Below, piece after piece: positions 9,351 to 21,988 of a DNA stretch of 64,000 nt. A program made the position numbers and the translations under genes. The notes under the pieces are model-generated. The model had not been told where the DNA came from. It did no database searches and saw only the letters and a list, made by a program, of their open reading frames with translations. Within the stretch, counting starts at the first letter, position 1. Every line of letters starts with the position of its first letter. The stretch comes from a virus. The DNA lies in IMG/VR virus record IMGVR_UViG_3300009008_000005, positions 116,826 to 180,825 of that record, one strand, 5' to 3'.

Positions 9351-10202
9351 ATGGCCTACGTACTACTGCTCGCCCTAGCACTGGGGGAATTCGGGTCCCC
9401 ACACAATGATCCCGTTGAACTTGCGAGGCACTTCGTAGAGGCAGGCGAGGTCTCCGGTGAAAATCCGTTCCTCCTCGCAGCGGTAGCCATCTATGAATCC
9501 AGGCTAGACAATGATGAGGTCAGCAAGAAGAACGCATGTTGCATGATGCAGGTTCTGGGAGGGCGGTACGGAAATCCCTCTTGCAGTGCGATGCAGAATG
9601 ATCTGTCCCTGTGTGTCCACATTGGGGCGAGAGAACTTTCCGAGTGGAGAGCCTATAGAGGCGCTGAGACCGACGAGAACACCTTATGCCACTACAACTG
9701 TGGGTGTGTGTGCTCCAGTAATTCCCGTAAGATGTATGTCAGCGGAGTACTATGGTGGAGGGACTTCCTGTATGCAGTGGCCACGCACACCCCGAAGTCT
9801 AGAATAACGTGCACGATCCGTATCCAAGAGAAGGAAGGCGTACTAGAAGCTACGGACTCTGCGTATATCTGGAACGAAGCTATAGCCGGACATGACCGGC
9901 CTAAAATTCGGAACTATGAGGAGCACGTGAAGAAAGACTTGAAGCTCAGGCTCAAGTATCGTACATGTAACTTGAAGCATGTCGGAGCCTGGAATGGGAA
10001 GAGATACTTGCACGAGCGCTCTCCGGCCTTCGCATGCCTCACATCTTCAAGGACCTATGCGTGTGAGGAGGAGGTCTACTATGCAAGCCATGACCAGGCG
10101 GTGCAGGTTGCGCAGGAGACCCTTGAGTGGCGTAGAGAAGCGCTACAGAGAATATGGGCTGGAACATTCCTCACATTCCTGGGACTTACAACACAGGGGT
10201 AA
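9351..10202 (+). CDS. Lytic transglycosylase-like peptidoglycan hydrolase (283 aa)
   Basis: Residues 38-100 fit the SLT (lysozyme-like) fold: NPFLLAAVAIYES with candidate catalytic Glu49, then CCMMQV at 63-68 and a later LCHYNCG matching the family's ALxxYNxG motif. The N-terminus is a hydrophobic stretch of about 12 residues that could act as a signal or signal-arrest peptide. Many cysteines suggest disulfides and work outside the cytoplasm. The C-terminal 140 residues are unassigned and may bind the wall. Such enzymes cleave the glycan backbone for lysis. AAGGAGG precedes the ATG. It lies in the accessory region, which suits an endolysin better than a tail enzyme. No holin is obvious. Confidence 0.7.
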   Translation: MAYVLLLALALGEFGSPHNDPVELARHFVEAGEVSGENPFLLAAVAIYESRLDNDEVSKKNACCMMQVLGGRYGNPSCSAMQNDLSLCVHIGARELSEWRAYRGAETDENTLCHYNCGCVCSSNSRKMYVSGVLWWRDFLYAVATHTPKSRITCTIRIQEKEGVLEATDSAYIWNEAIAGHDRPKIRNYEEHVKKDLKLRLKYRTCNLKHVGAWNGKRYLHERSPAFACLTSSRTYACEEEVYYASHDQAVQVAQETLEWRREALQRIWAGTFLTFLGLTTQG

Positions 10203-10205
10203 GCC

Positions 10206-10841
10206 ATGGCTAGTGCGGGCCTGAAACAACTACTCGGGCCCTCTGGCGAGGCGGACTTCATAGTCCTCGTCCAGGAGCCACTGATCGTGTCCAACGGACA
10301 GTGGATACTCACAGACAAGGCCGCTAAGAAGACACTCCCCAAGATGACAGAGCTTTGGCGGAAGAATGTCTTGAAGACCGCCGAGCAGGGTCAGATATCA
10401 CTTGTAGACCTGAACCCTGTGGTCGTCGGCCAGTTCGCTACGGAGGTGGCTAAGGGGAAGCGACCCTGCATCTATTGCAAGGGAGCTAACCTATTCACGG
10501 CCACCTTTGACCCAGGGGAGCAACAGGTCACTCTAGCCTATAGGTCCTTCCTGGAATTCGAACGGACCAGCATCCTACTACGTAGACCTCTTCACCACTC
10601 CACAGGTGCCTACCTGACTAAGGATGGTGAGCCCATGGCCTACTCCTGGTCATTCATGCATCCCACCTCACACACAATCTGGATCTGGGCACCCTACGTC
10701 TCACTGATGGCACGAGTCGGAGCGGTCGCCTTTGAGTACAACCCTGAGAATAAAAGGGTTGTGATCATGAAAAACAAGTACGACCACACCGTGGGCATGG
10801 TCGGCCTCTACGACCTCGATCCAGACAAAGAAAGCCTCTAG
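10206..10841 (+). CDS. Unknown protein next to the ubiquitin-like cassette (211 aa)
   Basis: Starts 4 nt after the transglycosylase stop, so it shares that operon. It is a mixed alpha/beta soluble protein with a CIYC pair near residue 88, an RTSILLRR basic strand and aromatic-rich strands near 150. No recognised family. It ends just before the promoter of the ubiquitin-like gene. Any link with that cassette rests only on position. Confidence 0.55.
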   Translation: MASAGLKQLLGPSGEADFIVLVQEPLIVSNGQWILTDKAAKKTLPKMTELWRKNVLKTAEQGQISLVDLNPVVVGQFATEVAKGKRPCIYCKGANLFTATFDPGEQQVTLAYRSFLEFERTSILLRRPLHHSTGAYLTKDGEPMAYSWSFMHPTSHTIWIWAPYVSLMARVGAVAFEYNPENKRVVIMKNKYDHTVGMVGLYDLDPDKESL

Positions 10842-10865
10842 TACAAATCCAAGTACTTTTCTCGT

Positions 10866-10872
10866 TATAAGA
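10866..10872 (+). promoter_or_regulatory. TATAAGA phage promoter box
   Basis: CTCGTTATAAGAAGATTG lies about 80 nt before the ubiquitin-like gene, giving it its own transcript with a leader of some 70 nt. Confidence 0.45.
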
Positions 10873-10948
10873 AGATTGAATCCTGGGCCACTAGTTGGTG
10901 GTCCGTGTGCACGGATTTGCCATAACTATCCTCTCAAGGAGGGAACAT

Positions 10949-11304: not shown

Positions 11305-12819
11305 ATGCCAGCAGGAGTTCAAGCAACCCGCCTACACGCCGACATGGTGTCGGTCTTGGGGGAACTCTCCTCTGAGATGAATGTAGGCATCCGAGCGGAG
11401 ACGGTGAATCTCTCTCGGTTCTTCTCGCAATTCCCCGGAACGGAGGGCGACAGCGTCAGGCTGTTCTTCCACAACGGGGAGCGTGGAACGCAGCAGGAGT
11501 TCAGCTTCGTCGTGGACGGAACTGAGTGCAAGGTCAAATTCGCCATGGCCCAGCACAATCCGAACCTCTTCGAGGAAGGGGTCGAAACCCAGCTGCGGAT
11601 CCCTGTCGGTGGCGGCGAATCCACAGACCTGATCGGTGTCTACGGAGGGACACAGATCATGTTCGGTGCAGACCTCAACAACCTCTTCACACACCCGGAA
11701 TACATCGAGGGAGATGTGACGGCCAAGGACTTGGCCAAGCACATCCTGAAGAGTGCCCTCTCCGGAATCATGGACAGCATCGAGAACCGTGGGCGGGAGG
11801 AGTTCGCAGACACCCTCATGACCATGTACAGGGCGAGCGTGGCCCTGTGGCGGGAGACCATCACGAACAACGACGCCTCGATCGACAACCACCTGCGCCA
11901 GCTGAGCGAGCTGTACACTCGCAACCAGGCCACTCGGGCGCAGATCAACGCCTTCGACGGCACCATGCAGACCGCACGGGACAAGGCGAAGGAGGAGTAC
12001 GAGAAGCTCGTCCGACTGGTTGGAACCTCCTTGGAGGAAGTCCAGGTCGTCAACCGGCGTCTGCAGCTCCGTACGTCGGAAATGCACATCGAGTACGACG
12101 GGATCGATTACAACATCGGCCGAATCGTGATCGACACCCCCATCCTCGGCAACTCTGGCGAGGTGACAATGTTCAGCTACGACGGCAGGGACCAGAACGG
12201 ATGCGCCCACCCGCACGTCAGCGGTGGTCGGGTCTGCTGGGGAAACGTGGGAGGCACGATCACGGAAGCGCTCTCCACAGGGGAAGTGCTCCAGGCTGTG
12301 TTGGCCATGCTCGCCTACCTCCAGTCGTACAACTCCGAGGATGCCTACACGGACATCCAGAACTGGGGCGATGCCTACGACCGTAACCAGGCCTGTCGTG
12401 AAGACCACAGCACGGATGAGTGCGCTCGCTGCGACAGTGAGGAGTGCCCATATCGGGAGGAGAGCCGACAGGAGTGCTTCGACGACCACACCCGTGACGA
12501 GTGTATCCGCTGCAACTCCTGTCCCCTCGCAAATGAAGCGGCAGAGAACTGCCTACGTGAACTGCTCTCGACCAACACTCTCGGTAGGTGCATGGAAACT
12601 TGCACCGTCAACACGTGCAGATTCTTCCGGAACCCTGTTCGCTGCAGAAACGTCATCGGATCCTGTCCGACTGCTTGCACTGCTGACACCTCGTGCTATC
12701 GACACCCGTCGTATTCTTCGGGTGACCCCGGCGGTGGTGGAAGTTCAGAGATCTCTGTGAGCCGCAACATGAGCATCACCGGAAGCGGTGACCAGTTCGA
12801 CATCGTGAGGAGGGCCTAA
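11305..12819 (+). CDS. E2-like ubiquitin-conjugating protein with coiled coil and Cys-rich tail (504 aa)
   Basis: Around residues 255-375 the protein shows a UBC-like core: strands (YNIGRIVID), then HPH at 302-304 and GGRVCWG with candidate catalytic Cys311. This parallels the HPN...G-x-(V/I)-C of classical E2 enzymes; a helix follows. Residues 1-160 are a strand-rich domain of unknown type and about 165-245 a coiled coil. After the E2 core come more than twenty cysteines (about 375-475) in CxxC-like pairs, possibly metal-bound, then a Gly/Ser linker. An E2 accepts the modifier from E1 and passes it to a target. ATG 11305 has AAGGAGG upstream; the frame start at 11257 has none. The stop shares a base with the next start (TAATG). 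Confidence 0.65.
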   Translation: MPAGVQATRLHADMVSVLGELSSEMNVGIRAETVNLSRFFSQFPGTEGDSVRLFFHNGERGTQQEFSFVVDGTECKVKFAMAQHNPNLFEEGVETQLRIPVGGGESTDLIGVYGGTQIMFGADLNNLFTHPEYIEGDVTAKDLAKHILKSALSGIMDSIENRGREEFADTLMTMYRASVALWRETITNNDASIDNHLRQLSELYTRNQATRAQINAFDGTMQTARDKAKEEYEKLVRLVGTSLEEVQVVNRRLQLRTSEMHIEYDGIDYNIGRIVIDTPILGNSGEVTMFSYDGRDQNGCAHPHVSGGRVCWGNVGGTITEALSTGEVLQAVLAMLAYLQSYNSEDAYTDIQNWGDAYDRNQACREDHSTDECARCDSEECPYREESRQECFDDHTRDECIRCNSCPLANEAAENCLRELLSTNTLGRCMETCTVNTCRFFRNPVRCRNVIGSCPTACTADTSCYRHPSYSSGDPGGGGSSEISVSRNMSITGSGDQFDIVRRA

Positions 12820-14024
12820 TGACGGGTACGACAACAACGAAGCCTACCGGAACCACCAACACGACCGGGAGCCGGGTGAACCCGGACCTGGTCAAGCCTC
12901 ACGTCTATATCATGCCCCGTGCCGATGCCAAGATCTGGCACTGGGTCCGAATGGCGACAGGTGAGGTCTCCGGCCTCGGCCTGGTCGACGTGATCGACGG
13001 ACAGATGGTCGTGTCCGATGTCTTCCTGCCCAAGCAGGAGTGCACCTCGGCGGACACGGACCTGGACCAGCAGGCGGTGGCACAGCTCATGATGGAGCTG
13101 GACAACGAAGGCGTGGACCTGGGGAAGCTCCGGTTCTGGTGGCATAGCCATGCCGACATGGAGGTGTTCTGGAGCGGGACTGACACGGGTACCATGCAGG
13201 AGCTGAGCGGGGGCGACACGTTCCTCCTCTCGATGGTCGTCAACAAGAAGCACGACCGGAAGCTCCGGGTGGACATGTTCAACCCCTTCAACATGATCCT
13301 CGACAACCTCGGGGCCAGCGTCCTCGACCTCTCCGATGAGGAGCTGAAGGAGGAGTGCAAGAAGGCGTTCGACGAGAACGTCTCCGAGGGCTACTCCGGC
13401 TACTACTCTGGGTCGACCCACAACCGCAGCGGCGGACGGTCCTCCACCAATGCCACCCACTCGGTCACCTCCGCCACACGGAGGAAGATTGGGTTTCAGG
13501 CAGGGAAAACGCCCACCTCGCAGATCTCGGTCTGGAATTCCAAGGACGGAGTGTGGGAGGACCACTACACGTACGCCGAGGGGGAGCCGAAGATCGTCAC
13601 GTCGTCGGGTTCGGTCGTCGGAGTAGGTGCGTACCTCTCCAAGGAGGCCGAGGCCATCGCAGAACTCGCCCACGAGGAAGGGTGGGGAAGCTGCATCGAG
13701 CAGCGTGGTGACGAGGACGCCAACGAGGTCGCTCCCATCGAGCCCGAGGAACCCACCGATGAGGACGAGGAGATCACGTACAAGAAGGTGGACGACATCA
13801 CGGACCTGGTCTGCGACGCCTGCGGGAACTACGTGCTGGCCCTCGACCCCGAGGACATGATCACGATGGAGGGTCCCAAGGGCACGAACCCGCTGAAGCG
13901 GCAGGACATCACCCTGTACTGCGCAGACTGCGGCGAGGCACACCACGTGAACGTCCTGATGAAGTACGTCGATGGGGAGTGGATCCCCAAGCAGTGGGTG
14001 GAGGGAATCCATGTCGAAGCCTGA
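12819..14024 (+). CDS. JAMM/MPN metalloprotease (401 aa)
   Basis: Complete JAMM zinc site: Glu49 (GEVSGLG), His109-Ser-His111, then Ser119-x2-Asp122. The family comprises isopeptidases that cut ubiquitin-like proteins from targets or trim their C-termini. Residues 1-25 are a Thr/Ser/Gly-rich tail, about 170-300 a linker region, 300-320 an acidic stretch, and the C-terminus a zinc ribbon (CDAC...YCADC). It overlaps the E2 stop by one base and the E1 start by 14 nt, so the three are one operon. Two jobs are plausible: cleaving TSV from the ubiquitin-like precursor and reversing conjugation. Confidence 0.85.
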   Translation: MTGTTTTKPTGTTNTTGSRVNPDLVKPHVYIMPRADAKIWHWVRMATGEVSGLGLVDVIDGQMVVSDVFLPKQECTSADTDLDQQAVAQLMMELDNEGVDLGKLRFWWHSHADMEVFWSGTDTGTMQELSGGDTFLLSMVVNKKHDRKLRVDMFNPFNMILDNLGASVLDLSDEELKEECKKAFDENVSEGYSGYYSGSTHNRSGGRSSTNATHSVTSATRRKIGFQAGKTPTSQISVWNSKDGVWEDHYTYAEGEPKIVTSSGSVVGVGAYLSKEAEAIAELAHEEGWGSCIEQRGDEDANEVAPIEPEEPTDEDEEITYKKVDDITDLVCDACGNYVLALDPEDMITMEGPKGTNPLKRQDITLYCADCGEAHHVNVLMKYVDGEWIPKQWVEGIHVEA

Positions 14025-14697
14025 GATCGACACCACCATCTACTGGCGGCAGATGGACGTGCTGCCCATGAAGAAGGTCCTCTCGGTCCCCGTCACCGTC
14101 GTCGGTGCGGGGGCCATCGGGAAGGCCATGGTCGAGGTCCTCTCCGGGATGGGGATCAACGACATCACCGTGTTCGATGCGGACAGCGTCGAGCCCCACA
14201 ACCTTCCCAACCAGGGCTACCGGCCCTGCGACGTCGGGAAGCCGAAAGTCGAGGCGCTGGCCGAGATCGTGGAGGCCCTCACGGGATTCAAGATCAAAGG
14301 CATGAACGAGTGGTTCACGGACCAGAAGGTGTCCGAGATCACCGTGTGCGCAGTCGATAGCATGGACACGAGGATGAAGCTCTGGGAGGCCATAGCTCCC
14401 CAGCTCCCGAAGCTCTACATCGACATGCGGATGGGAGCTGAGATCGGGCAGATCTTCTATGTGAACCCGTGGAGTCCCGGCTCCAAGCGGCAGTACGAAG
14501 CGAACCTGTTCCCGAGCGATGAGGCCGTCGAGGCACCATGCACGGAGAGGGCGACCAAGTACTGTGCGACGGGTATCACGTCATTCGCAGCGGGCGGGGT
14601 GGCGAACTACCTCCGTGGTGAGGCGCTTCGTCCGCTCGTGCTGGACTTCAGGTGCGGTCAGGTCATCGATCTTCCGAAGGCCACCGAGAAGCCTTGA
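14011..14697 (+). CDS. ThiF/E1-like activating enzyme (228 aa)
   Basis: Rossmann nucleotide-binding loop GAGAIG at 32-37, acidic DAD at 56-58 and HNLPNQGY at 63-70 are the signature of ThiF/MoeB/E1 enzymes, which adenylate the C-terminal Gly of a beta-grasp protein. Cys177 and Cys185 (PCTERATKYC) are candidates for the thioester or a structural site; the second zinc-binding CxxC pair of MoeB is not seen. ATG 14011 follows GGAGGGAATCC and lies inside the JAMM gene. At 228 aa it is a minimal E1, close in size to PRTRC ThiF proteins. Last gene of the operon. Confidence 0.85.
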   Translation: MSKPEIDTTIYWRQMDVLPMKKVLSVPVTVVGAGAIGKAMVEVLSGMGINDITVFDADSVEPHNLPNQGYRPCDVGKPKVEALAEIVEALTGFKIKGMNEWFTDQKVSEITVCAVDSMDTRMKLWEAIAPQLPKLYIDMRMGAEIGQIFYVNPWSPGSKRQYEANLFPSDEAVEAPCTERATKYCATGITSFAAGGVANYLRGEALRPLVLDFRCGQVIDLPKATEKP

Positions 14698-17577: not shown

Positions 17578-18525
17578 ATGGCGGAGAAGGCAAAAATGCC
17601 AGCCGAGGCTAAGAAGATCGAGATCCCGTTCGACTCCATCGAACTGGACAAGTACGGCCTGCGTAACAGCAGGTCTGCAATTCCCAACACGGACAAGCTC
17701 CGGGCCTCCATCGAGGCGTTCGGTCTGCTCGTCCCAATGGTCGTGTGGAAGCCCCCAGGAAAGGATTCCTACGTCCTGTGCTGCGGGTACCTGCGACACA
17801 AGGCGATCACAGAAATCCGGTCCAAGGATGCAAAGCAGTACGAGACCATCGGAGTCTCCCTGCTGGACGGTGTTCCCCTCAACGACGCACTCTGCGTCAA
17901 CCTCGAAGAGAACATCAAGAGGGAGACCCTCAACCACGCAGACCTCGCAGCCCGCATGTTCCTCCTGAACCACGGGCGCAAGATGAGCGAGACTGCCATC
18001 GCCGACAAGCTCAACGTGTCCCAGGGGTACGTAGCACGCCTCATCGGCGTGCACATGAACTGCATCGACGAAGTGCTCCAGGCTCTCCGTGAAGGCCTCA
18101 TCTCCGTGCAGCGTGCAAAAGAGCTGGCCACCCTGGATCCGGAAGAGCAGCTCACCCACCTGGAGAAGCTGCTAGACCCGGAGAAGGCCGAGGAGTTCCG
18201 GAAGAGGCTGGCCAAGAAGGTCGGGCACTCTCGTCCAGGTATCAAGGTTATCCAGGCGCAGATCAAGCAGCTGGAGAAGTACGAGGGGGACCAGGATGTT
18301 GGCTATCGGCGTGGTGCTCTCGCTGCGCTCCGCTTCTCCTTGGGTACAGCCGAGGAAATACTCCTCTTCCACCCGCCTGAGTCTGCATCAGGGTCTGCCT
18401 TGAAGAAGACCATGAAGAAGCCTGACAAGAAGAAGGTCGCCGAGAAGAAGTTCCCGACCAAGAAGGAAACAAAGAAGAAGTCTGCGAAGAAGAAGAAGCT
18501 GGTCACGAAGAGGAGCAAGTCCTAG
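17578..18525 (+). CDS. ParB-like protein (315 aa)
   Basis: N-terminal ParB/sulfiredoxin fold with box CGYLRHKA at 69-76 (equivalent to GERRxRA) and ENIKR at 111-115, the CTP-binding boxes of ParB. A helix-turn-helix at about 135-157 (ETAIADKLNVSQGYVARLI) follows, then a helical domain and a very Lys-rich tail (about 278-315). ParB proteins bind palindromic parS sites and slide as CTP-gated clamps; KorB relatives repress transcription. No ParA/ParM partner is in the window. ParB-related proteins define PRTRC cassettes, so the conjugation genes upstream may belong with it. TAGGAGGG precedes the ATG. Confidence 0.85.
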   Translation: MAEKAKMPAEAKKIEIPFDSIELDKYGLRNSRSAIPNTDKLRASIEAFGLLVPMVVWKPPGKDSYVLCCGYLRHKAITEIRSKDAKQYETIGVSLLDGVPLNDALCVNLEENIKRETLNHADLAARMFLLNHGRKMSETAIADKLNVSQGYVARLIGVHMNCIDEVLQALREGLISVQRAKELATLDPEEQLTHLEKLLDPEKAEEFRKRLAKKVGHSRPGIKVIQAQIKQLEKYEGDQDVGYRRGALAALRFSLGTAEEILLFHPPESASGSALKKTMKKPDKKKVAEKKFPTKKETKKKSAKKKKLVTKRSKS

Positions 18526-20163
18526 ATGACGCAGCTTGAATCTCTCATTTGTTCCGACTACCCGTTGACCTACGTCATCACGTCGGAAGAAGAGAGGCTC
18601 CTGTTGGAGCTGGACAGGATCCTGAAAGATAACGATATGCACGCTGAGGTGCACGCATGGGACATCGTCAACGGTGTTCGCCCGGTGTACATCCGGGAAG
18701 GCGTACCTCAGTTCGGTGACTCCATCGTCATGGGTCCTGATCCCTCCGCAGGGGTTGAGTGGCTGGGAGAGAGGAACAAGGACACGATCCTTCTGTTCCT
18801 CGACATCCATCGTACATTCGATGACGCCCAGTCCGTTCGTGCTCTTCGGAATGTTCTACAACTACGCCACCACAACGACGTGGCACGCACAGCGATGATC
18901 GTGTCCCCTATCTCCGAGGTTCCTCCAGAACTCCGTAGGCAGGTGGCCGTCATCGACTTCGACCTACCGACCCGCTTGGATATCGCAGAGTACCTCGCAG
19001 TGAAGCAGAAGAAGGCCGAGCTGGGAGACGCACTGGGAAGCAAGCCTGAGGACCTCACTGACATCATCGACGCTTGTAGAGGGCTGACCCTCTACGAGAT
19101 AGAGAATGTACTCGCACGAGCCTACATCGAGGAGGGCAAGGTAAGCCCCGAAATCGTAGTTCGTGAGAAGAAGTCCATCATCAGGTCCAGCCGTTCCCTT
19201 CAGTACTATGACACCAAGGAGTCACTGGAGAACGTCGGTGGTCTAGAGAACATTCACAAATGGTTAGCGCAGCGCAGATTGGCTTTCTCTCCGAAGGCCA
19301 GAGAGTTCGGGTTACCATACCCAAGAGGGATCCTCCTTGTAGGAGTCCCTGGTGGCGGGAAAAGCCTGGTGTGCAAAGCAGTGTGCGCCAGCTGGAAGAT
19401 TCCTCTACTACAGTGGAACGTGGGTGCGTCCTTCGGAAAGTACCTGGGAGAGACTGAAGGTGAGGAGAGGAACGTAGAGAAGACCTCCGAAGCTGTAGCT
19501 CCTTGCGGGTTGTGGGCCGACGAGATCGACAAGGGTCTTGGAGCTTCCGCCGCAGGTGGTGGAGCTACTGACGGTGGAACAGGGGCCCGCATGGTCGGGA
19601 GCTTCCTCACATGGATGGAAGAGAAGACGGAACCTGTCTTCGTCCTCGCCACCTGCAATGCCATTGAAGGTCTAGGGCCGCTTCTACGCCGAGGCAGGTT
19701 CGACGAGATCTTCTTTGTAGATGTACCTAACGAGAATGCTCTTGGACAGATACTTGAGATCCACATCCGACTGAAGGGTAGGGACCCGGAGAAGTTCGAT
19801 ATCCCTCGCCTTGTGGAGAGGTCCTTAGGCCTTGTGGGAGCTGAAGTGAAGAGCGCTATCGAAGATGCACTCTTCCTAGACTTCGAGAAAGGTCAGGAAT
19901 TGTCACAAGAGTCCTTGGAGACATGTCTACTTCGAGTCATTCCGCACTGCATCACACGGAAGGACGAGATAGCGAGGTTGCGAAAATGGGCAGAAGACAA
20001 AGCCCAACCGGCGCAATCAGAGCCTCTGGATTTACAGAGAGCTTTGGACTTGCGAGAGCAGTTGGCCCAACAATCCCAGCAGGGATCACGCAGATCTTTG
20101 GCCCGCCGGGGTCGGGTAAAACGTCGCTTGCCCTCTGGCTCGAAGGCCTCGCCCAAAAAGTAA
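18526..20163 (+). CDS. Ycf46-like AAA+ ATPase (545 aa)
   Basis: Starts directly after the ParB stop (TAGATG). Residues 1-230 form an N-terminal domain of the Ycf46 type. The AAA+ module has Walker A GVPGGGKS at 273-280, Walker B-like LWADEID with Asp332/Glu333, and a sensor ATCN. An arginine-finger region (LLRRGRFDE) follows. AAA+ proteins remodel proteins or complexes using ATP. The last 59 codons overlap the next gene in another frame (178 nt), and the tail is Arg/Lys-rich, unlike a folded domain. The DUF2997-like and Ycf35-like genes downstream support the Ycf46 assignment. Confidence 0.8.
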   Translation: MTQLESLICSDYPLTYVITSEEERLLLELDRILKDNDMHAEVHAWDIVNGVRPVYIREGVPQFGDSIVMGPDPSAGVEWLGERNKDTILLFLDIHRTFDDAQSVRALRNVLQLRHHNDVARTAMIVSPISEVPPELRRQVAVIDFDLPTRLDIAEYLAVKQKKAELGDALGSKPEDLTDIIDACRGLTLYEIENVLARAYIEEGKVSPEIVVREKKSIIRSSRSLQYYDTKESLENVGGLENIHKWLAQRRLAFSPKAREFGLPYPRGILLVGVPGGGKSLVCKAVCASWKIPLLQWNVGASFGKYLGETEGEERNVEKTSEAVAPCGLWADEIDKGLGASAAGGGATDGGTGARMVGSFLTWMEEKTEPVFVLATCNAIEGLGPLLRRGRFDEIFFVDVPNENALGQILEIHIRLKGRDPEKFDIPRLVERSLGLVGAEVKSAIEDALFLDFEKGQELSQESLETCLLRVIPHCITRKDEIARLRKWAEDKAQPAQSEPLDLQRALDLREQLAQQSQQGSRRSLARRGRVKRRLPSGSKASPKK

Positions 20164-20837
20164 GACCCACCTACTGGTTGAAGTTTGAGCCTCTACCTGA
20201 AAGGGATCACTTCATCCGCATGGGAGTGGACCTGGAGAAGCTACACATTGCTTCACCTAAGACTCTGGACGGAGGGTACAGCCATCTACGTTCCCTCGTC
20301 CCTCACTCACTCGTCGTATGGGACTGTCTAGACTCCACCAAGGTCGGAGACGGCCAAGAGCTTAGTAGCGGCACACACGGCGTCTACGAGCCTCTGGTGG
20401 AGTACTTTGAGGACATAGCGAACCTGGTACACGAGTTCGGCATATCCCTGATTGTCATCTCCCAGGTTCGCCAGTCCTTCAAAAACCCCCGGGAAGTCAT
20501 ATCTTCAATGGAGTACCTCCTACCCTTCTTCGTCATGTCGTTGAGTGTAGAGGTCAAGAAAACCGAGTCCAGGTTCGGTGAAAAGACCTGGAAGCGCATG
20601 CATGTGCATGCCCGTAGAAATCTGACCTGGCCACCAGGCGGAAGTGCCGACTTACACTATCACGAGACCTTGGGGTTCTGCCCTGAGATCGAACTCGTAA
20701 TAGAAGCTGAGAAGAAGTACGGACCTAAGTGGAGAAACGAGCTAGGTATCACCATGCCACGTGGCCGGGAACAAGCTGTAACACGAATCCGGGAGAACCC
20801 GGAACTATTCGAACAATTATGGAGGGCAGTGCTATGA
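19986..20837 (+). CDS. RecA-like P-loop ATPase (283 aa)
   Basis: Walker A GPPGSGKT at 39-46 and Walker B SLVVWD at 108-113, with the RecA-type segment DHFIRMGVDLEKLHIASP between. This resembles phage UvsX/RecA-like or RadA-like proteins, shorter than RecA (about 350 aa). ATG 19986 has GAGG 8 nt upstream; a frame opening at 19923 is possible. The first 60 codons, including Walker A, overlap the end of the AAA+ gene. The stop overlaps the next ATG. May serve recombination or supply energy to the Ycf46 module; the second is speculation. Confidence 0.7.
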   Translation: MGRRQSPTGAIRASGFTESFGLARAVGPTIPAGITQIFGPPGSGKTSLALWLEGLAQKVRPTYWLKFEPLPERDHFIRMGVDLEKLHIASPKTLDGGYSHLRSLVPHSLVVWDCLDSTKVGDGQELSSGTHGVYEPLVEYFEDIANLVHEFGISLIVISQVRQSFKNPREVISSMEYLLPFFVMSLSVEVKKTESRFGEKTWKRMHVHARRNLTWPPGGSADLHYHETLGFCPEIELVIEAEKKYGPKWRNELGITMPRGREQAVTRIRENPELFEQLWRAVL

Positions 20838-21019
20838 AGAGGGCCGAGATCGAGATCCTTCCTGACGGGACGATGAAAGCAGAGGCCATCGACTTCGAGG
20901 GAAAGGGTTGTGAGGTGTTCCTACAGGAACTTACGAAGGGCCTGAAGCCAAAGAGTAAGCAGAGGAAGAAGGAGGCATTGGTCCTGGACAAGGCTCCAAG
21001 ACAACGGCTCCGTACATGA
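20834..21019 (+). CDS. DUF2997-like small protein (61 aa)
   Basis: The pattern I-x-I-x-PDG-x-(M/V)-K-x-E-A-x-x-(F)-x-GK-x-C-x-x-x-x-x-x-L, seen as IEILPDGTMKAEAIDFEGKG then C, matches what I recall of DUF2997, which occurs next to DUF1257 and Ycf46-type ATPases. The C-terminus is Lys/Arg-rich. ATG overlaps the RecA-like stop and its own stop overlaps the radical-SAM start. Biochemical role unknown. Confidence 0.65.
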   Translation: MKRAEIEILPDGTMKAEAIDFEGKGCEVFLQELTKGLKPKSKQRKKEALVLDKAPRQRLRT

Positions 21020-21564
21020 TCTATGCCGGGATCATTGAGAACAGTGAGGTGAATGGACCAGGACGGAGAAATGTACTCTTCGTTCGTGGGTGCCCTCACG
21101 AGTGTCCTGGCTGCTACAACGCAAGTCTATGGGATCTCAGAGTCCCGGGTGCGTTGGAGGCTACACCAGAGGACCTAGCGGACAAGCTGATGATGGGTTC
21201 ACCCGATGGTGTATCCATATCGGGAGGAGAGCCCCTGCTGCAGCTAGCAGAGCTACTCCGACTCTTGCAATCCCTGAATAGGGAGGGAGTTTCCGTAACC
21301 ATCTTCACAGGTTACACCAAAGAGGAGATCATGGGTTCACCAATGATGTCCGCTGTGCTGAACCTTGTAGACATCCTTGTTTGCGGACGTTACGATTCTA
21401 GTCAGCCCTCAGGCGCTGGCTTGAGAGGTTCCGAGAACCAGGAGATTCTGGTGCTGAACGGTGAGTGGGATAAGGAAGAGTTGGAGACATGTCCACACTT
21501 CCTTGAGATCCATTCCGACCCACCGATCATCACAGGATTCCCTGCGGCAGCAATCTTGAAGTAG
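21016..21564 (+). CDS. Radical-SAM activase-like protein (182 aa)
   Basis: CPHECPGC gives cysteines 26, 30 and 33, the CxxxCxxC site that holds a [4Fe-4S] cluster, and SISGGEP is the SAM-binding GGE motif. Size and the start (short NGPGRRNVLFVRGC) match the NrdG-type activase family that makes a glycyl radical on class III ribonucleotide reductase. No NrdD is in the window. Relatives of this size also occur in Ycf46/DUF1257 clusters, so the target may be elsewhere. Translationally coupled to the gene before it. Confidence 0.8.
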   Translation: MIYAGIIENSEVNGPGRRNVLFVRGCPHECPGCYNASLWDLRVPGALEATPEDLADKLMMGSPDGVSISGGEPLLQLAELLRLLQSLNREGVSVTIFTGYTKEEIMGSPMMSAVLNLVDILVCGRYDSSQPSGAGLRGSENQEILVLNGEWDKEELETCPHFLEIHSDPPIITGFPAAAILK

Positions 21565-21574
21565 GAGGAAAGAA

Positions 21575-21988
21575 ATGTCAGCGTATCTAACTTGTGTGGC
21601 CGTGTACGAGAAGCCCGAGCTTATCGAAGAGGCCCTGAAAATGTTGGGTCTTCGTCCCCAGACTGGGACGGGTCTCACCCTCACCGGGGGCGACCGGGCC
21701 GTGCAGAACGCATCTATCAAGGTGGACAAGTCTCAGTATGGCGGTACTGCAGACCTCGGGTTCGTGAAGAAGAATGCCGAGTACGAGATGTTCATGTACA
21801 ACGGGGACAGCGGGAAGATCGCAGCGAAGTCCAGCAGCATCAAGCGGGGCACTGCCTTCAACACCGCCTTCCGTCAGGCGTACACGATGACGCAGCTCAC
21901 GGCCAATGCCAGACTGAAGGGTATTCGTATCCAGAAGCAGGCTAACCAAGTGTTTGGCCAGCCCGTCAAGATGACAGCGTTCGCCTAG
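21575..21988 (+). CDS. DUF1257 (Ycf35)-like protein (137 aa)
   Basis: Begins MSAYLTCVAVYEKPELIEEAL and contains the DUF1257 pattern: residues 30-50 with a gap, then ADLGFVKKNAEYEMFMYN, and a C-terminal helix with AYTMTQLTANARLKGI. Ycf35/DUF1257 is known from algal plastids, cyanobacteria and phages, of unknown function. AGGAGGAAAG precedes the ATG. It closes the plus-strand half; its stop overlaps that of the convergent tail gene by 4 nt. Confidence 0.7.
   Translation: MSAYLTCVAVYEKPELIEEALKMLGLRPQTGTGLTLTGGDRAVQNASIKVDKSQYGGTADLGFVKKNAEYEMFMYNGDSGKIAAKSSSIKRGTAFNTAFRQAYTMTQLTANARLKGIRIQKQANQVFGQPVKMTAFA

Follow-up and report, generated by a model that had tools for sequence, protein, structure and literature searches.

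A phage gene set encoding a p97-like AAA ATPase, DUF2997 and DUF1257 proteins and a radical-SAM protein, read as a possible protein-remodelling system

To our knowledge, no clear biochemical role has been assigned to Ycf46, Ycf35 or DUF2997 proteins. What, then, might a virus do with genes of these types, packed together with genes for a RecA-like protein and a radical S-adenosylmethionine (radical-SAM) protein? Such a set occupies positions 18526 to 21988 of the window analysed here, a stretch of 64,000 nucleotides that forms part of the 180,825-base virus record IMGVR_UViG_3300009008_000005 (positions 116,826 to 180,825). We describe evidence that it is a phage form of a gene set widespread in cells, in which a Cdc48/p97-like AAA ATPase, DUF1257 and DUF2997, sometimes coupled to a radical-SAM protein, may carry out ATP-driven protein remodelling or maturation with iron-sulphur (Fe-S) radical chemistry; we give this reading a probability of roughly 0.4. 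The five genes are as follows.

18526..20163, + strand: AAA ATPase of the Ycf46 type, modelled as a p97/Cdc48-like tandem protein (PF00004 1e-21, phrog_8638 2.5e-109)
19986..20837, + strand: RecA/UvsX-like ATPase (PF00154 20.9 bits, phrog_97 (UvsX) 4e-5)
20834..21019, + strand: DUF2997 protein of 61 aa with an invariant Cys (PF11211 22.5 bits, local profile 9e-15)
21016..21564, + strand: radical-SAM protein of the NrdG/PflA-activase type, 182 aa (Fer4_12 9e-30, CxxxCxxC and GGEP, C-terminal extension)
21575..21988, + strand: DUF1257 (Ycf35-type) protein of 137 aa (PF06868 27.1 bits)

These genes have the place, strand, order and families given to them by an earlier, sequence-only reading of the region, and the overlapping or abutting architecture that it took to mark a single unit holds at each junction. 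The 3' end of the AAA gene overlaps the RecA-like gene by about 180 bp (19986-20163) in a different frame, the RecA-like/DUF2997 and DUF2997/radical-SAM junctions are 4-bp overlaps (ATGA), and a 10-bp gap containing a GGAGG site separates the radical-SAM gene from the DUF1257 gene, the final gene of the + strand block. The AAA/RecA-like overlap is unusually long, and the corresponding genes of one related contig (L091) do not overlap. The DUF2997 gene most likely starts at 20834, within a larger frame that opens at 20729. Scans for promoters and terminators in the window returned weak promoter-like sites only and no excess of terminators.

Conservation of the set was assessed in an AAA-seeded sample of 80 cellular and 80 viral loci, relatives being sought with a narrower AAA alignment as the query, to which DUF1257-bearing regions found in 5 of 400 Chloroflexota, 18 of 195 Myxococcota and 33 of 392 Planctomycetota genomes were added; neighbours were identified using profiles built from the collected loci. 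Three further viral contigs (L091, L093 and L104) have the full order AAA/RecA-like/DUF2997/radical-SAM/DUF1257, the first two with one extra small gene ahead of the radical-SAM gene. Their AAA proteins are only about 34-40% identical to that of the window, and the gene order has therefore been kept over a long divergence. The AAA-DUF1257-DUF2997 core recurs in phages (RHph_I4, L338C, HJ05, SM1, RcKickapoo and many IMG/VR contigs), in Chloroflexota, Myxococcota and Planctomycetota, and in one archaeal metagenome-assembled genome. All three genes occur within 6 kb on one strand in 36 of the 38 DUF1257-seeded bacterial loci that hold an AAA gene. Among the 80 cellular loci seeded with the AAA protein, 56 have DUF1257 near the AAA gene, some 49 of these being cyanobacterial. 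Because the identical order recurs in three contigs and the core in bacteria and phages, the arrangement goes beyond chance, and we confirm that the five genes form a real, conserved unit. The association of DUF1257, DUF2997 and Ycf46-type ATPases, which the sequence-only reading had put forward, is likewise borne out by these neighbourhoods and is consistent with a published cyanobacterial cluster (PMC4284462). Scans with the DUF1257 protein of the window as the single query detected no relatives in viruses or phages, the genes that follow the AAA gene in Corndog-type phages gave no match to the DUF1257 or DUF2997 profiles, and the collection of literature searched contained no publication tying DUF1257 to phage.

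The AAA protein offers the most direct indication of what the set might do. Its N-terminal module (about residues 1-220) is degenerate and lacks a Walker A motif, and its C-terminal module (about residues 230-495) carries Walker A at 273-280, the Walker B residues DE at 332-333 and the arginine fingers at Arg 388/391, as expected of PF00004; the key catalytic positions of this second module are invariant in 29 relatives. In an AlphaFold2 model (predicted local distance difference test score, pLDDT, 87.8), residues 1-493 align to the D1-D2 modules of p97/Cdc48 (VIA Z 26.3, 454 residues aligned, root-mean-square deviation 5.5). The protein is thus predicted to be a tandem ATPase of the p97/Cdc48 kind with one active module, and we infer that it acts in the manner of a protein remodeller while lying outside the CDC48 family by score (TIGR01243, 81.2 bits; curated cut-off 802.65). 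It may be related to Ycf46; cyanobacterial homologues, 35-38% identical, directly adjoin ycf35. A homologue 31% identical occurs in the Streptococcus satellite phage Javan368, where DUF1257 and DUF2997 were not found. Assignment to a defence system was considered and dropped, as the weak IetA matches of the AAA protein reflect the common ATPase domain.

Whether the two small proteins match their family profiles had been set beforehand as a check on the sequence-only reading. The match stood for DUF1257, which scores 27.1 bits against PF06868 (gathering cut-off 22.2), and fell just short for DUF2997 (PF11211, E 1e-4, 22.5 bits; gathering cut-off 24.1), but a broader local profile, built from seeds among which this protein is included, gives 9e-15 for the latter; the check did not refute the reading. 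DUF2997 contains a G-x-x-C motif in which the Cys is invariant in 84 of 84 sequences and the flanking Gly is conserved in 97%, making this Cys a candidate site of action of the machine. The AlphaFold2 model of DUF1257 (pLDDT 87.8) gave no clear match in a structure search of the PDB (best Z 5.0; no Foldseek match under 0.001), and we therefore read no function from its fold. A natural DUF1257-DUF2997 fusion encoded upstream of an AAA gene (L096 7182-7760) suggests that the two proteins act together. Five planctomycetotal loci (L205-L209), in which AAA and DUF2997 genes adjoin, match the DUF1257 profile in its C-terminal part alone and hold divergent members.

The radical-SAM protein is a clear member of its superfamily (Fer4_12/PF13353, 104.2 bits against a cut-off of 22; CxxxCxxC present). 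Of 69 loci that have DUF2997, 14 hold a radical-SAM gene within 6 kb of the AAA gene, against none of the 129 that lack DUF2997 (Fisher p 1.5e-7, a value that overstates independence because the loci are related), and the linkage label requires at least 5 gains or losses on a quick AAA tree. The linked loci belong to Chloroflexota, Myxococcota, Planctomycetota and several viruses. The sequence-only reading held that both the RecA-like and the radical-SAM protein had joined the set here. For the latter this fails: the same neighbour stands at bacterial loci, and the radical-SAM gene is therefore part of the cellular version of the set rather than an acquisition of this phage. It is not obligatory, since most loci with AAA, DUF1257 and DUF2997 lack such a neighbour. 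In three Myxococcota loci (L188, L189 and L190) it lies tail-to-tail with the DUF2997 gene, 12-21 bp apart, within a longer frame.

The protein could instead be an ordinary NrdG that activates a host anaerobic ribonucleotide reductase (RNR) to supply deoxynucleoside triphosphates, with unrelated neighbours. Such genes are common in phages, the protein matches phrog_626 (NrdG) at 2e-32, its highest raw identity (37-38%) is to T4-like NrdG, and a weak branch (support 72/72) joins it to phage NrdG. It nevertheless scores 106.9 bits against the NrdG equivalog TIGR02491, below the cut-off of 126.1. GGDP is the motif in four of the five phage NrdG proteins linked to NrdD (that of ICP1 gave no motif-scan match); the linked set has GGEP instead, and those phage proteins end before a C-terminal segment (E...G[FIW]) common to the linked radical-SAM set, including the window protein. 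A reduced tree, from which five long or very distant rows were omitted, splits 17 rows including the window protein (two of them lying 5-9 kb from DUF2997) from the five phage NrdG proteins with support 100/99; in a fuller tree the linked rows do not form one group. NrdD (PF13597) was not found in the virus's own record (G000), its relatives G011-G013, G001 or G003, records that may be incomplete and whose hosts could provide NrdD. A class I/II-type RNR large subunit is present in G001 and G003, with weak matches to one in G011/G012, and no glycyl-radical domain was found in four phage records. Given the score under the NrdG cut-off, the extra C-terminal segment and the failure to find NrdD in the records checked, the window protein is probably not an anaerobic-RNR activase. 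The NrdG explanation, against which the tracking of radical-SAM with DUF2997 across phyla also counts, is in our view improbable, and some phage genes labelled NrdG may have a role other than ribonucleotide reduction.

The proposal that the set remodels or matures proteins with the help of Fe-S or radical chemistry draws on the p97-like AAA protein, on chaperone genes at bacterial loci and on a cyanobacterial link. An Hsp70-like gene stands beside the set in six Chloroflexota or Planctomycetota loci (L079, L082, L171, L172, L193 and L204), with a GrpE-like gene in L082, neighbours that fit a role in protein folding or maturation. In cyanobacteria, DUF2997 and ycf35 cluster with the ferredoxin gene fed7, and Fed7 binds a DnaJ-like protein (PMC4284462). 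According to this proposal, the AAA ring would spend ATP on opening or remodelling a client protein, DUF1257 and DUF2997 as a pair might recruit the client or present the conserved Cys, and the radical-SAM protein, via a 5'-deoxyadenosyl radical, could modify or activate either the client or DUF2997 itself. In the phage setting the client may be a host or a phage protein, with the RecA-like ATPase perhaps a lineage-specific client or helper, and in cyanobacteria the coupled Fe-S partner is possibly the 4Fe-4S ferredoxin Fed7 in place of radical-SAM. A more specific version would be a new post-translational radical chemistry, present in cells and borrowed by phages. Its target would be the Cys region of DUF2997, or a client that DUF1257/DUF2997 present, with the radical-SAM protein making the modification and the p97-like ATPase opening the substrate; we regard this as a long shot.

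Several observations count against the remodelling proposal. The pore-loop position of the AAA protein is Leu rather than aromatic in most relatives, the DUF2997 Cys is invariant also where a radical-SAM neighbour is absent, as it is from most loci with the core, and the linked loci are non-independent samples; the resemblance and joining branch to phage NrdG, and the possible incompleteness of the genome records, bear in the same direction.

Gene composition varies among the loci collected. In L082 (9986-19768, Chloroflexota) the order is AAA, HEAT/WD40, GrpE-like, Hsp70, DUF1257, DUF2997, radical-SAM and WD40. In L049 (9794-19656) and L099 (7983-17439) it is AAA, a superfamily 1 (AAA_11/AAA_12) helicase, two open reading frames of about 570 and 660-720 aa without Pfam match, DUF2997, DUF1257 and radical-SAM; the L049 helicase resembles MkoA in PADLOC.

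The RecA-like gene is a viral addition to the set: it is found in L091, L093 and L104, and no bacterial locus examined has one. The window protein scores below the PF00154 cut-off of 27 bits, which the proteins at the same position in L091 and L093 clearly exceed (48.7 and 45.0 bits). Its presence raises the alternative that the block is a DNA replication or recombination module, in which the RecA-like, AAA and upstream ParB-like proteins act on phage DNA with the small proteins as adaptors.

17578..18525, + strand: ParB-like protein, directly upstream of the AAA gene (HTH_ParB 2e-6, phrog_4715 2e-20)

The ParB-like stop codon abuts the AAA start codon (TAGATG), the RecA-like gene overlaps the AAA gene, and in several of the phages with the core it lies close to replication genes, a few genes from DnaB/Pol I. 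Bacterial versions, however, adjoin Hsp70, GrpE and WD40 genes or ycf35, and the AAA protein models like protein unfoldases. The same record holds a second RecA-family gene (G000 10143-10880; loci L211 and L213), and in the L104 protein (9590-10435) the Walker A Lys is replaced by Val (GMPDSGVST), so that the RecA-like protein is probably not the main recombinase. A DNA module thus appears rather unlikely.

Two further genes, which overlap each other, lie upstream in the same + strand block.

12819..14024, + strand: JAB/JAMM-type protein with an intact HSH-x7-SxxD motif (sequence motif; syntenic homologues in L091, L093 and L104; Prok-JAB match 0.077)
13972..14697, + strand: ThiF/E1-like protein (PF00899 1e-22; homologues in L091, L093 and L104)

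Both are syntenic in the three contigs with the full order, two of which (L091 and L093) also share ParB. Together with the resemblance of the AAA protein to p97, they could indicate a ubiquitin-like pathway in which the AAA protein unfolds proteins bearing a tag under the control of the E1-like and JAB proteins, and the Fe-S protein is an accessory. The upstream gene products checked include no ubiquitin-like protein ending in GG, and just 1 of the 40 bacterial loci examined (L208) gave a match to the E1 profile, which makes such a pathway very unlikely.

New here are the p97-like model of the AAA protein, the invariant DUF2997 Cys, the radical-SAM/DUF2997 linkage and a radical-SAM protein that is probably not NrdG. 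Ycf46, Ycf35 and DUF2997 are now tied to a p97-like remodeller, an invariant Cys and an apparently dedicated radical-SAM subfamily, and the compact phage gene set provides a small system to purify, with concrete testable predictions. None of these findings directly supports the suggestion that the set serves metabolism or host takeover.

Comparison with known systems places the set as follows. The radical-SAM protein shares its family and CxxxCxxC with the NrdG/PflA activases, from which it differs by GGEP, the C-terminal extension and the lack of an NrdD partner in the records checked. Like p97/Cdc48, the AAA protein has two tandem modules by model comparison (Z 26), but its first module is degenerate, its score is far below the CDC48 cut-off and its partners are different. 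Ycf46 (Slr0374) of Synechocystis, the AAA relative named in the sequence-only reading, has been associated with the use of CO2 (Jiang et al. 2015, cited in PMC7496141), a carbon role that is unlikely to transfer to a phage. The Rhizobium phages RHph_I4 and L338C, Pseudomonas SM1, Aeromonas HJ05 and Rhodobacter RcKickapoo likewise carry AAA, DUF1257 and DUF2997 genes in one direction; they lack radical-SAM and RecA-like genes and have another gene of about 210 aa instead. The Chloroflexota and Planctomycetota loci L082, L171, L172 and L193 share adjacent DUF1257, DUF2997 and radical-SAM genes (with AAA in L082, L171 and L172), and have Hsp70 and WD40/HEAT genes (GrpE-like in L082) in place of RecA-like. 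Finally, the cyanobacterial DUF2997-ycf35(DUF1257)-fed7 cluster also joins DUF2997 and DUF1257 to an Fe-S protein, and at the cyanobacterial loci collected here the AAA homologue directly precedes ycf35; relative to that cluster, the phage set has radical-SAM in place of the ferredoxin, five contiguous genes and an added RecA-like gene.

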